Source of the DNA: Lacrimispora celerecrescens
Lineage (GTDB): Bacteria; Bacillota; Clostridia; Lachnospirales; Lachnospiraceae
Assembly (NCBI RefSeq): GCF_000732605.1
Contig: NZ_JPME01000012.1
Span: forward strand, 1-64,000
DNA length: 64,000 nt
Direction: 5' to 3'
This document shows, in pieces, positions 40,108-48,534 of the stretch (the first letter of the stretch is position 1; each line of letters opens with the position of its first letter). Under the pieces are notes generated by a model that had not been told where the DNA came from, searched no databases, and saw only the letters and a program-made list of their open reading frames with translations. The translations under genes were made by a program, and so were the position numbers.

Positions 40108-40980
40108 ATGGCAAATACATATCAAAACCTGCAAAAGTCACACCCATGCTTTGGAGGAAATAAAAACACCGTGGGCCGGATCCACCTTCCGGTAAGCCCC
40201 GGCTGCAATATTTCCTGTAAGTTCTGCGACAGAAGAATCAATGATGAGGAGGAAAGGCCGGGAGTGACCTCTAAGGTGCTCACTCCTTCACAGGCGCTGG
40301 AGGTTCTTGACAAGGCTCTTACCCTTTGCCCGGAGATTACTGTGGCAGGCATTGCAGGGCCGGGCGATACCCTGGCTACGGATTATGCACTGGAAACCTT
40401 CCGTCTGGTAAAGGAACACCATCCGGAACTGATCAAATGTATGAGTACCAACGGCCTGCTTCTCTTTGAACGTGCGGATGAGATCATTGAAATTGGAGTG
40501 GAATCCGTGACCGTTACGGTAAATGCGGTGGATCCTGAAATCGAGGCAAAGCTGAACCGGTGGATCCTGTATCATGGGCGTATTTATGAGGGAGTCCAGG
40601 CAGCTGAGATCCTGATAGAAAACCAGTTAAAGGGCATCAAAAAGATAGCGGATGCAGGGATCACGGTAAAGGTGAACACCGTCCTGGTGCCAAACATAAA
40701 CGGAGCGCACATTGAGGATATTGCAAAGGCTGTAAAAGAGGCGGGAGCATGCATCTACAACATTATCCCTCTGATCCCTCAATCGGAACTTTCCCATGAA
40801 ACGGCCCCCGTTTGCCAGGAGATCGACGAGGCCAGAACTATGGCAGGAAAGCATATTGATGTTTTCCGCCATTGCCAGCACTGCCGCGCCGATGCAGTGG
40901 GCATGCTTGGGGGAAAGGATTTTGGAGATATGATATACCAGAGAAGGATCGCAGGAAGCGATACCTTTTCCCACGGATGA
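40108..40980 (+). CDS. nifB: NifB-like radical SAM cofactor maturase
   Basis: The 290-residue protein matches NifB: HPCFGGNKNTVGRIHLPVSPGCNISCKFCDRR with the SAM-cluster CxxxCxxC, then ERPGVTS, AGIAGPGD, MSTNGLLLFE, and the C-terminal CQHCRADAVGMLGG, where extra cluster cysteines lie. NifB makes the carbide-centred Fe8S9C precursor (NifB-co). It lacks the fused NifX-like tail found in some NifB; that domain is encoded by the next gene. As no nifE or nifN is present, the precursor may be used directly as the catalytic cofactor. Confidence 0.93.
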   Translation: MANTYQNLQKSHPCFGGNKNTVGRIHLPVSPGCNISCKFCDRRINDEEERPGVTSKVLTPSQALEVLDKALTLCPEITVAGIAGPGDTLATDYALETFRLVKEHHPELIKCMSTNGLLLFERADEIIEIGVESVTVTVNAVDPEIEAKLNRWILYHGRIYEGVQAAEILIENQLKGIKKIADAGITVKVNTVLVPNINGAHIEDIAKAVKEAGACIYNIIPLIPQSELSHETAPVCQEIDEARTMAGKHIDVFRHCQHCRADAVGMLGGKDFGDMIYQRRIAGSDTFSHG

Positions 40981-41002
40981 AGAAAGGGGGAGGTGAAATA
41001 AC

Positions 41003-41362
41003 GTGAAATATAAGATTGCAGTGGCATCAACCGATGGAAAAGTGATCAACCAGCATTTCGGAAGAGCCGAGGTCTTTTACATCGTGGAGGCTGACAGCGG
41101 GGGTTTGACATTCACCTATGAGGAAAGCCGAAAAACAGTTCCCATATGCAGGGGACAGGAGCATGATGAATCACAGTTAAAAGCTGTGGCAGCCATACTG
41201 AAGGATTGTGATTATATTCTGGTCAGCCGGATTGGAGCCAGTGCAAGGGCTGCACTGGATCAAAACAACATAGAGGCCTTTGAACTGCCGGGATATATTG
41301 AGGATTCCATCCGGAAACTTCTAGCTTATATTGAGGTACAGAAAAGCTTATGCGGGCTATAG
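41003..41362 (+). CDS. NifX/NifB-C-like cofactor-binding protein
   Basis: The 119-residue protein has the dinitrogenase iron-molybdenum cofactor-binding fold: KIAVASTDGKVINQHFGRAEVFYIVE at the start, a central conserved turn, CDYILVSRIGASARAALDQN and a short end. These proteins carry NifB-co or related clusters between maturase and enzyme. GTG at 41003 follows GGGGGAGG. It is the separate counterpart of the C-terminal domain of long NifB proteins. Confidence 0.88.
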   Translation: MKYKIAVASTDGKVINQHFGRAEVFYIVEADSGGLTFTYEESRKTVPICRGQEHDESQLKAVAAILKDCDYILVSRIGASARAALDQNNIEAFELPGYIEDSIRKLLAYIEVQKSLCGL

Positions 41363-41433
41363 AGAAAGCCTGACTTTGATTGAAGACTTATACGACAATT
41401 AATTATGCGAATCAGAAAGAGAGGATTTTATCA

Positions 41434-46373: not shown

Positions 46374-46377
46374 TGGT

Positions 46378-47079
46378 ATGGATAAACTGTTTGGCTGGGA
46401 GCGGTTCTTTGAAAATATCCCTAAAATTCTTCCGTATTTATCGGTGACCTTTCAGATTGTGGTTTATGCCACCGGATTCGGAGTGCTTCTTGCCGCGTTC
46501 ATTGTTCTGGCAGAGCTCAAAAAGATTCCGGTCCTGAATCCGTTTTTTAAGGTGTATGTCTCATTCATGAGAGGAACCCCCATGCTGGTACAGCTGATGA
46601 TTATTTATTACGGGATACCGGCCCTAATTGATCCTGTTTTCGGTACCAACATCAACCGGGGGTTCAGTGCGGTAACGTTTGCTTATATTACCTTTATCTT
46701 AAATCAGGGAGCATTTCTTTCTGCCATATTTTACGGTGCAATCACATCCATTCCCTATGGGCAGACAGAGGCGGGCTTCAGTGTGGGACTTACGGAGCTC
46801 CAGACCTTTCGGAGGATCCTTTTGCCCCAGATGGTGAGGATTGCTCTGCCGCCCTTTGGCTCTGATCTGGTGGGATTGTTTCAAAATTCTTCTCTTGTAT
46901 TTCTCATCGGTGTTACGGATATCATGGGAAGGGCCAAATCCATCGGCGCGGCCACAAAACACGTACTGGAAGCCTATGTGTTTGTGGTGATCATCTATAT
47001 TGTTATCAGTTTAACAATCAGGCTTCTTTTTTATTACCTGAATACAAAACTGGAGTATGGGAGAGAAGGGGTAGAATGA
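46378..47079 (+). CDS. TcyL/TcyM-like ABC permease, first subunit
   Basis: The 233-residue permease has about five helices and the family loop AITSIPYGQTEAGFSVGLTELQTFRRILLPQM. It starts four bases after the binding-protein stop and overlaps the next permease gene by four bases. Together the two form the channel of the importer at the end of the nitrogenase-like operon. Confidence 0.88.
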   Translation: MDKLFGWERFFENIPKILPYLSVTFQIVVYATGFGVLLAAFIVLAELKKIPVLNPFFKVYVSFMRGTPMLVQLMIIYYGIPALIDPVFGTNINRGFSAVTFAYITFILNQGAFLSAIFYGAITSIPYGQTEAGFSVGLTELQTFRRILLPQMVRIALPPFGSDLVGLFQNSSLVFLIGVTDIMGRAKSIGAATKHVLEAYVFVVIIYIVISLTIRLLFYYLNTKLEYGREGVE

Positions 47080-47786
47080 ATTTTAATACAGCTCATTTTT
47101 ATGAAAGCTTTCTTTATGGTATTAAGTATTTTCCCAATACCCTGAGGCTTGTGTTCATTCCGCTGGCCATTGGCCTGACTCTGGGAACGGTAATTGCACT
47201 GGCCAGGGTCTATAAAGTGCCTGTTCTCTGTAAGCTTCTTGGGATTTTTGTCACCGTATATCAGGGTGTTCCCATTGTGGTGGCTCTGATGATATATAAC
47301 CTGGTTTTCATGCTCAAATTCAATGACCTGGCAGGATTTTTACATATTAAAACAAAAGCCGCTGATGTAGATAATATCTGGGTAGGTATTTTTGCACTGA
47401 GCCTTACTGCGGTGTGTTCCATATCAGAGGCCATCCGGGGAGCCCTACTGTCCATTGACAAGGGGCAGGATGAAGCCGGATATTCCGTAGGTCTTACAAA
47501 GGTCCAGACCATCAGGAGGATCATTATCCCCCAGATGATCCCGGCGGCGATCCCCACACTGATCAATCATGTGGTCGGCTTAATCAAGGCCTCCTCCGTA
47601 GTCATGGCCATCGGTATTATTGAAATTGTGGCAGGAGCCACCATTCCAAGTTCCCGGACGTATTCCTTTTTTGAAGGATATGTGGCGGCCGCAGTCATAT
47701 ACTGGGCATTTACCATTATGATCGAATACCTGGCAAAAGTCTTAAGGCGCCATACAGGCAGATTTAGGAGGAATCCATATGATTGA
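47076..47786 (+). CDS. TcyL/TcyM-like ABC permease, second subunit
   Basis: The 236-residue permease carries the equivalent loop ALLSIDKGQDEAGYSVGLTKVQTIRRIIIPQM and MRG-like YQGVPIVVALMIY near the first third. It overlaps the ATPase gene by eight bases. Heteromeric permeases are typical of Tcy-type systems. Confidence 0.88.
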   Translation: MNFNTAHFYESFLYGIKYFPNTLRLVFIPLAIGLTLGTVIALARVYKVPVLCKLLGIFVTVYQGVPIVVALMIYNLVFMLKFNDLAGFLHIKTKAADVDNIWVGIFALSLTAVCSISEAIRGALLSIDKGQDEAGYSVGLTKVQTIRRIIIPQMIPAAIPTLINHVVGLIKASSVVMAIGIIEIVAGATIPSSRTYSFFEGYVAAAVIYWAFTIMIEYLAKVLRRHTGRFRRNPYD

Positions 47787-48534
47787 AGTAAAGAATGTAA
47801 AAAAGGCCTTTGGAAAGCAGCAGGTCCTAAAGGATGTTTCTGTGGAGGTGGAGGATGGCCAGGTGGTGGTTGTCCTCGGCCCCAGCGGTTCGGGGAAAAC
47901 CACATTGCTGCGGTGTATTAATTTCCTGGAAAATGCGGACAGCGGACAGCTAGCCATTGGAGATACCTGCGTGGATTTAAAAAAAGCCACCAAAAAGCAA
48001 ATACTGGAGATCAGAAGGAAAACGGCCTTTGTTTTTCAAAATTACAATCTTTTTGCCAATAAAACTGCATTGGAAAATGTGATAGAAGGCCTTGTTACGG
48101 CCAGGCATATTCCCAGGGAGGCAGCAATTAAACGGGGGAAGGAAGCCCTTGACTGGGTGGGACTGGGGGAGAAATATCATTGTTATCCCTGCAACCTTTC
48201 CGGCGGACAGCAGCAGCGTGTGGGTATTGCCAGAGCCTTTGTCTTAAATCCGGAAGTGATTCTGTTTGACGAACCAACGTCTGCCCTGGATCCGGAGCTG
48301 GTAGGAGAAACCCTTGATATCATTAAGAAAGTGGCGGGAAGAGGAATTACGATGATCGTGGTGACCCATGAAATGTCCTTTGCCCAGGATGTTGCCAATA
48401 AAGTGATCTTTATGGATGAAGGGATTGTTGTGGAAGAAGGAAGTCCGGAAGAGATTTTTTCAAATCCGAAAGAAGAGAGGACCAGACAATTTTTATCAAG
48501 AATCATTTCCCTGGATTCCAACTATTCGATATAA
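47779..48534 (+). CDS. TcyN/TcyC-like ABC ATPase
   Basis: The 251-residue ATPase has Walker A GPSGSGKTT, Q-loop VFQNYNLFAN, signature LSGGQQQR, Walker B VILFDEPTSALDP and H-loop VVTHEM. AGGAGG lies within the end of the permease gene, six bases before ATG. It is the last intact gene of the operon. Confidence 0.92.
   Translation: MIEVKNVKKAFGKQQVLKDVSVEVEDGQVVVVLGPSGSGKTTLLRCINFLENADSGQLAIGDTCVDLKKATKKQILEIRRKTAFVFQNYNLFANKTALENVIEGLVTARHIPREAAIKRGKEALDWVGLGEKYHCYPCNLSGGQQQRVGIARAFVLNPEVILFDEPTSALDPELVGETLDIIKKVAGRGITMIVVTHEMSFAQDVANKVIFMDEGIVVEEGSPEEIFSNPKEERTRQFLSRIISLDSNYSI

Follow-up and report, generated by a model that had tools for sequence, protein, structure and literature searches.

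What would a genome that lacks the usual partners of nitrogen fixation do with nitrogenase-like genes that run directly into a cystine-type importer? The question is raised by an intact operon at positions 39417-48534 (+ strand) of a 64,000-nucleotide stretch of Lacrimispora celerecrescens DNA (contig NZ_JPME01000012.1, positions 1 to 64,000; hereafter the window). A preliminary description of the sequence had listed nifB-, nifX-, nifH-, D-, K- and Cys-rich nifX-like genes followed by those of a binding protein, two permeases and an ATPase, and had read them as a sulfur-scavenging system. Every named gene was found as an open frame in that order, with matches to Radical_SAM/NifB, Nitro_FeMo-Co, Fer4_NifH, Oxidored_nitro (twice) and Tcy-type ATP-binding cassette (ABC) parts. 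We put the probability that the operon serves cysteine-starvation-induced sulfur scavenging by a nitrogenase-like enzyme at about 0.72. This reading is well supported, and the nitrogenase relative most likely removes sulfur from organic compounds; judged from sequence, chemistry of the methylthio-alkane reductase (MAR) type is likely.

Relationship of the D and K subunits to MAR

Relatives were sought by scanning species genomes with the K subunit; 167 stretches were confirmed and the best 80 (at least 72% identity) were examined. With the window these gave 81 loci of the group referred to here as clade A, individual loci being cited by L numbers and genomes by G numbers. Ten loci in which K was not called directly after D were left out, and 48 of the remaining 71 extended 5 kb or more beyond K and 3.5 kb or more ahead of D (full-context loci). 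The closest match to the window, Clostridium sp. Marseille-P2415, reaches 94% in K. Among the carriers with names are Lacrimispora xylanisolvens, [Clostridium] aerotolerans, Lachnospira multipara, two Propionispira, Cellulosilyticum ruminicola and [Clostridium] fimetarium, and the others are mostly metagenome-assembled genomes (MAGs), many labelled rumen or gut. In 200 genomes spread over the window's family, Lachnospiraceae, clade A was found in 14, in 13 with at least 66% identity over the length and in one as a fragment (73%).

The preliminary description had placed the enzyme nearer to MAR than to N2-fixing nitrogenases, and comparison with solved proteins, ligand alignment and the D tree all agreed. 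Among proteins in the PDB, the D subunit (42324-43787, +) matched Rhodospirillum rubrum MarD with 304 bits and its best NifD with 106 bits; the K subunit (43787-45085, +) matched MarK with 385 bits and NifK with 73 bits. Ligands were compared using MarD and MarK letters from the PDB alignments, in a numbering that reproduces the residues named in the available portion of PMC12552129. Among 74 clade A D proteins, each of at least 300 residues, the P-cluster cysteines at MarD 66, 91 and 158 were kept in 72 (two alignment gaps), 74 and 74, respectively, and those at MarK 32, 56 and 121 were kept in all 19 aligned clade A K proteins. The [Fe8S9C] ligand Cys270 and Trp195 were present in 74/74 D proteins, the loop-I pair Arg428-His429 and His375 each in 73 (one gap in either case), and Phe199 was conserved too. 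The same portion of PMC12552129 names Arg428 and His429 together as a possible hallmark of MAR.

A tree of D proteins was built from 77 sequences, five odd ones having been removed first, and was rooted on L123 and on sequences labelled NifD or NifE by gene order; the NifD, NifE and NifK reference labels derive from gene order in L116-L118 only, and the L116 NifD is without His442. Proteins with the MAR-type Arg-His pair united at 98.8/100 and formed three clades: canonical Mar together with a single relative (L145); clade A, grouped at 100/100 with a sister from G050; and a clade of nine loci, five of which have Ssu-type importer genes (L127, L138, L142-L144). Clade A was the sister of Mar plus the nine-locus clade, and was not nested with R. 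rubrum MarDK. The tree of K proteins again placed clade A with its G050 sister (95.1/99), and Mar, L145 and the nine-locus clade formed a group at 100/100. The phylogeny that had been called for thus recovered a MAR-type superclade in D, in which clade A stands beside Mar and not within it. The MAR-type ligands and this sister position in the D tree make clade A MAR-type and not canonical MAR, and to call it MAR outright would be an overstatement.

The MarBHDK system of R. rubrum (PDB 9FMG, 9D9U) shares with the window the nifB-H-D-K set, the lack of NifEN and NifV (here, in the window's genome), and the P-cluster cysteines, Cys270, Trp195, Phe199, His375, Arg428 and His429. Clade A differs from it as a sister clade with Ile in place of His194 and with Gly, Ser, Asn or Ala in place of Cys73, and also in its two NifX-like proteins, a TcyK-type importer in a subset of loci, a Cys leader and attenuator, and, in many loci, a CysK-like gene that separates H from D. 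Since the pocket is altered at His194 and Cys73, the substrate of clade A probably differs from that of canonical MAR. MarDK homologues in heliobacteria have been noted (PMC9147875, in the portion available).

A true or alternative nitrogenase that fixes N2 would account for the NifH-like reductase, which passed the NifH model, and for the P-cluster cysteines and the cofactor Cys ligand. The genome speaks against it, as does the operon. PF00148 matched four places only, two of them the operon's D and K and the other two an unrelated pair on contig C2, so that no NifE/N stands alongside; no NifV match reached the cut-off (best in the genome 100.8 bits, cut-off 462.9), and the absence of NifE, NifN and NifV that had been claimed was thereby upheld. 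His was not found at the NifD 442 position in the alignment of clade A D proteins, loop I is of the MAR type, and the sulfur neighbourhood and Cys leader described below also count against nitrogen fixation. With neither NifEN nor NifV above cut-off and with a MAR-type loop, a N2-fixing nitrogenase was rejected, and its probability is negligible.

A sulfonate reductase resembling isethionate reductase (Isr), which would release sulfite from a sulfonate, has somewhat more in its favour. Isr is likewise a sulfur-assimilating nitrogenase-like enzyme (PMC11423573, in the portion available), Ssu/NMT1-type importer genes occur in nine of the 48 full-context loci, and the genome has one NIR_SIR place. 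IsrBHDK with SsuCAB in Rhodobacter capsulatus resembles the window in combining a nitrogenase-like enzyme with an ABC importer encoded beside it, for the anaerobic assimilation of sulfur, and differs in its sulfonate-type importer, its clade and its lack of most cluster ligands: IsrD is without two P-cluster cysteines and both cofactor ligands (PMC11423573, likewise), whereas clade A keeps them. A protein that is Isr-like by ligand pattern (L154) fell outside the Arg-His clade, and the window importer is not of the Ssu type. An Isr identity for the operon D and K was rejected on ligand pattern and tree, and a sulfonate reductase of this kind is improbable.

The leader peptide and predicted attenuator

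The claim of cysteine-type regulation was supported by features that lie upstream of the span 40108-48534 given in the preliminary description. A sigma-70-type promoter-like site (TTGACA-17-TATAAT, 39417-39445, +) has 12/12 consensus matches; a scan of the region gave three such sites against 3.4 expected from shuffles, so that only the quality of this site is notable. It is followed by an open frame for a 39-residue leader peptide, MKNAMVSARVNHLSSFDKMDCCCCKTVCMYMNTAYFCMY (39502-39621, +), with a run of four Cys codons (CCCC). In the minimum free energy (MFE) fold of the transcript that ends before the terminator 3' arm, an antiterminator (39624-39658, +) pairs UACCUG at 39624-39629 with CAGGUA at 39653-39658. 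An intrinsic terminator (39651-39675, +) has a 9-pair stem and a T run; it was the one found in a scan that expected 0.7.

When the transcript was folded as it would be before the 3' arm of the terminator exists, the MFE structure was the antiterminator, which engages the 5' arm of the terminator. The first arm of the antiterminator begins 3 nt past the leader stop codon and would be covered by a ribosome at that stop. In the final fold the terminator is more stable than the antiterminator (-20.9 vs -17.6 kcal/mol), so the switch would be kinetic, like classical attenuators. The same layout was seen in L005, L007 and L040 (ACCTG, CAGGTAC and GTACCTG after the leader), with CCTG in L008, and L059 is similar. 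By sequence, the features of a ribosome-mediated attenuator of the trp/his kind are present in the window, L005, L007, L008 and L040, and are not clear in other loci, for example L020 and L026. A search of the window against Rfam at gathering thresholds returned no matches, and hence neither a T-box nor an S-box at that threshold.

Recurrence of the leader was assessed in the 55 loci with at least 60 nt of upstream region before nifB or cysK-nifB, the scan demanding an ATG start, 14-60 residues, at least four Cys, a CC pair and 10% Cys. Leaders were found before the operon in 17 of the 55, the window included, compared with a mean of 0.31 and a maximum of 2 in 100 dinucleotide shuffles. The 17 contain near-copies (L007/L040, L023/L026) and are therefore not 17 independent cases. 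As controls, other intergenic DNA on the + strand (84 kb) gave seven matches and the antisense strand (112 kb) gave one; three of the intergenic matches (L033, L034, L054) are like the L023/L026 leaders and were probably mis-sorted by gene calling.

Cys-codon leader peptides before sulfur or cysteine genes have been described before. Those before cys operons of Actinobacteria have no obvious terminators (PMC1262725), and in Rhodobacterales a Cys upstream frame with the uORFC-8-2 motif precedes cysS (PMC8632094), both as given in the available portions of these papers; uORFC-8-2 also comes with a terminator. The window differs from the Actinobacterial leaders in having both a terminator and an antiterminator, in belonging to Clostridia and in standing before a nitrogenase-like operon.

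Sulfur genes and importers around clade A

The sulfur context that had been proposed for the operon was supported by its relatives. Among the 48 full-context loci, CysK-like genes were found in 44, PatB C-S lyase genes in 24 and MetB-like genes in 22, and Rrf2 and IscS-like genes in 13 and eight, respectively. For scale only, at the CysK density of this genome (two over cut-off in 5.03 Mb), a 17 kb stretch would hold such a gene by chance with a probability well under 1/50. The CysK-like genes are of two types: in a comparison of those of 300-345 residues among the 53 and 30 genes collected, the type between H and D branched apart from that upstream of nifB. The L006 copy of the former scored 322 bits against a cysKM cut-off of 344, and the upstream CysK of L011 passes the cut-off for cysteine synthase A (453 vs 351 bits). 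In the window's genome, two genes each for MetY and CysK score over cut-off. The cysteine synthase-like genes in most loci, together with the recurrent Cys-rich leaders, support sulfur assimilation induced by cysteine starvation.

A system for cluster delivery or stress, which would handle Fe-S clusters and not organosulfur compounds, could explain the IscS-like and Rrf2 genes nearby. The CysK-like, PatB and MetB-like genes are commoner than these, and the catalytic ligands are kept, which makes a role of this kind very improbable.

The importer of the window is complete: a TcyK-like substrate-binding lipoprotein (45543-46373, +), permease 1 of the cystine/polar amino-acid type (46378-47079, +; NF011680 126.6 bits, cut-off 300), permease 2, from the same sequence cluster as permease 1 (47076-47786, +), and a TcyN-like ATPase (47779-48534, +; NF008428 323.6 bits, cut-off 406). 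The best PDB matches of the binding protein were Lmo2349 (4gvo) and Bacillus subtilis YtmK (2o1m), at 156 bits each; YtmK is TcyK. The ABC scores lie below the NCBIfam cut-offs, so the Tcy assignment holds at family level only, and transport of cystine or related compounds is predicted. Whereas TcyJKLMN of B. subtilis has two binding proteins, the window has one binding protein gene. The monooxygenase of the Bacillus importer operon cleaves the C-S bond of S-alkyl-cysteines in an O2-dependent manner. The ytmI-type operon of B. subtilis and the window have in common a YtmK-near binding protein, two permeases, a TcyN-like ATPase and a sulfur-related setting, and differ in that the window importer is joined to a nitrogenase-like reductase and a Cys attenuator. 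In B. subtilis the importer belongs to a CymR-repressed operon with a monooxygenase gene (PMC11487621, PMC9239247, in the portions available).

Importer types vary among the relatives. In the 48 full-context loci, the window-type importer was found in nine, another SBP_bac_3 type in three and Ssu/NMT1 types, as mentioned, in nine, three loci having both; any importer was present in 18. Clade A lineages with the linked importer are L005-L008 and L040, Propionispira (L010, L016) and a Butyrivibrio MAG (L076); beyond the 48, it is also linked in L079 and L081, and L066 has divergent parts. A binding protein with at least 50% identity occurred in 2/14 of the clade A genomes in the family sample and in 0/186 of the others (p = 0.005). 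In one of these two clade A genomes, G319, the importer lies on a different contig from the enzyme, with MetB, PatB, LysR, aminotransferase and iron-containing alcohol dehydrogenase (Fe-ADH) genes. A recurring set of cystine-type importer, HisC-like aminotransferase and GldA-like Fe-ADH was also observed (L164:8214-14000, L147:10736-16001, L007:9752-15024), and its L164 copy has no nitrogenase-like genes nearby.

The strongest alternative to a transporter dedicated to the enzyme is a common cystine importer with no further tie to it than their joint cysteine-starvation switch. The enzyme would then act on another compound that enters by diffusion, for example dimethyl sulfide or 2-methylthioethanol, in the manner of canonical MAR. 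Small volatile thioethers are MAR substrates (PMC12552129) and TcyJKLMN is named a cystine importer (PMC11487621), in the available portions of both papers; 39 of the 48 full-context loci lack the window-type importer, and that of G319 lies with MetB-PatB-LysR on a contig other than the enzyme's. The translational coupling of nifX2 and the binding protein in the window, the linkage to clade A in several lineages, the presence of a cystine-type importer in a separate Arg-His clade (L145) and a clade A pocket unlike that of MAR all speak for a closer tie. A bystander importer has a substantial chance, though we do not favour it. That the importer feeds the enzyme, as first proposed, is plausible, at a little under even odds: co-encoding and translational coupling hold in the window, and the linkage in few loci, the other importer types elsewhere and the separate contig in G319 do not fit the proposal. 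The importer thus appears sulfur-related and not an obligate partner of the enzyme.

Several observations weigh against sulfur scavenging by a MAR-type enzyme under cysteine control. In the pocket, MarD His194 is replaced by Ile in 74/74 clade A D proteins, and the Cys73 position holds Gly in 48, Ser in 19, Asn in three, Ala in two and a gap in two; clade A lacks these two MAR active-site residues, which may or may not define the family. The K tree joins clade A to the Mar group weakly (35.7/78). The fold of the leader region (39560-39690) is only moderate (z -1.84, 8/200 shuffles as good), 38 of the 55 loci showed no leader under the stringent scan, and a strict finder located no terminator in seven of the 17 leader loci (L006, L021, L039, L041, L051, L060, L079), in some of which an imperfect stem followed by a U run can be seen by eye. 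A terminator was found in the other 10, and in L020 and L026 only one base of its arm is paired upstream. The window-type importer is present in just nine of the 48 full-context loci, and the binding protein (at least 50% identity) in only two of the 14 clade A family genomes. Within the 48, the CysK-like gene is missing in the window itself, as in L005, L008 and L066. Finally, clade A showed no association with a lack of CysD/H-like genes (2/14 vs 37/186, p = 1), in a test for PF01507 of at least 180 bits whose threshold was picked after viewing the match list.

The preliminary description had considered the linked transporter and Cys attenuation to be new. No linked transporter for Mar and no Cys attenuation of such an enzyme were found in the open-licence literature searched, nor any account of the function, importer or attenuator of clade A. 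Isr has a linked, essential SsuCAB importer (PMC11423573, in the portion available), so that an importer beside a sulfur-assimilating nitrogenase-like enzyme is not new in principle.

Remaining genes, proposed mechanism and meaning

From nifB to the ATPase gene, gaps are at most about 70 bp. The overlaps that had been described as running into the importer set are present at nifX2/binding protein, permease 1/permease 2 and permease 2/ATPase, and D and K overlap as well. The gene order is largely repeated in named relatives, which is more than chance would give. Upstream of the nifB-like gene is an open reading frame (ORF) that the preliminary description had passed over, for a 52-residue DUF2292/OscA-like small protein (39860-40018, +; PF10055 56.6 bits, cut-off 22; OscA NF033785 34.8 bits, cut-off 85), which had a tblastn match in 32 of the 81 loci and in 25 of the 48. 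A second terminator-like hairpin (40021-40072, +; folding z -3.2) precedes nifB. The operon then encodes a radical SAM protein of the NifB/MarB kind that has no C-terminal NifX domain (40108-40980, +; TIGR01290 283 bits, cut-off 344; PF04055), a first NifX-like protein (41003-41362, +; PF02579 69.6 bits) and the NifH/MarH-like reductase (41434-42282, +; TIGR01287 458 bits; PF00142). The second NifX-like protein (45112-45546, +; PF02579), after K, has a Cys-rich insertion; 5-10 Cys were found in 61/61 copies after D-K (window and 60 relatives), and the protein is a possible cluster carrier. Directly before the operon lie a SulP sulfate-type permease (37552-39264), a match to which also precedes the operon in L008, and a Crp-type regulator (36846-37514).

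Other nitrogenase-like pairs occur in these genomes. The C2 pair (L115:9421-12662, from G000:C2) is the second nitrogenase-like H-D-K set of the window's genome and lies beside a Fec-type ABC importer; it was rejected as NifEN, as its own NifH-like gene and the Fec-type ABC genes adjoin it and most ligands are missing in the alignment. A different second pair, D'K', is found in 24 of the 48 full-context relatives (e.g. L005:2910-5628, L135:8605-11398), and close relatives place it between nifX1 and H. D' keeps the P-cluster cysteines and Cys270 in 37/37 copies and is without the loop-I Arg-His pair and His442; the idea that it carries the nitrogenase His442 was dropped, its His aligning with an earlier His and position 442 being Met. 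The best NCBIfam model for D'K' was NifE (172 bits, cut-off 505), and the pair may serve as a scaffold or act as another enzyme. In the family sample, with matches of about 28% or more classified, all seven genomes with an identified D' have clade A, three partial matches at ~30% belong to another clade, and G309, without clade A, has a sister of D'. The pair is absent from the window though present in close relatives, and so may be dispensable.

A further nitrogenase-like clade was observed in L119 (10875), L120, L122, L124-L126, L128-L130, L132, L151, L152 and L161-L163, with the loop-I His and without Arg428 in 13 aligned D proteins; CysK-like genes are present in 10/15 of these loci and Ssu-type parts in 12/15. 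Its members are probably further organosulfur enzymes. Across 27 loci of other nitrogenase-like clades or D', CysK-like genes (at least 40% identity) were found in 12, Ssu-type parts in 16 (weak matches included) and a cystine-type permease in four. L145 (G344:C48:72000-88000), the relative of canonical MarD, has window-like DUF2292, nifB, H, D, K, nifX and cystine-type ABC importer genes, and CysK, PatB, MetB and Rrf2 as well.

Elsewhere in the window, positions 35005-36825 encode a restriction endonuclease of the FokI type, in which all four FokI domains are present. No methyltransferase gene was seen next to it; contig C3 has two MethyltransfD12 places side by side (C3:50466-52282). An ORF with collagen-like GPV repeats stands at the window start (5-574).

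The leader and attenuator anatomy, ligand conservation, phylogeny and sulfur neighbourhood can be read directly from the DNA; cluster content, reaction, substrate and importer-enzyme coupling we infer, as follows. When charged tRNA-Cys is short, the ribosome would stall at the leader Cys codons, the antiterminator would form and the operon would be transcribed. The NifB-like protein, aided by the NifX-like proteins, would build an [Fe8S9C] cluster, and the NifH-like protein would drive ATP-dependent electron transfer to a D2K2 enzyme with P-clusters, whose [Fe8S9C] site would have Cys and the loop-I His as ligands, like that of MAR. Acting on a small organosulfur compound, this enzyme would break a C-S bond reductively. 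The freed thiol or sulfide would enter cysteine via cysteine synthase (encoded in the locus in most relatives and elsewhere in this genome) or methionine via MetY, and the TcyK-type importer would take up cystine-like organosulfur compounds, probably including the substrate of the enzyme, e.g. S-alkyl-cysteine.

It can tentatively be suggested, as an idea more open to doubt than the uptake role of the importer, that clade A forms a new MAR-type substrate class: an anaerobic reductase of amino-acid-like thioethers (e.g. S-alkyl-cysteines), coupled to its own TcyK-type importer and cysteine synthase and replacing the O2-dependent C-S cleavage that Bacillus joins to the same kind of importer. If so, several unassigned clades of nitrogenase-like proteins in Clostridia of the gut and rumen would be one organosulfur reductase family with exchangeable importers, clade A being under cysteine attenuation. 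Cultured carriers exist ([Clostridium] aerotolerans DSM 5434, Lacrimispora xylanisolvens DSM 3808, Lachnospira multipara LB2003 and two Propionispira), so that the function of this part of group IV is directly testable. Apart from N2 fixation, very few enzymes are known to use nitrogenase-type metalloclusters. A clade that is common among Clostridia of the rumen and gut and combines MAR ligands, a readable cysteine switch and a candidate importer would reveal how anaerobes draw sulfur from organic compounds, and could explain the release of thiols, sulfide or hydrocarbons in guts.

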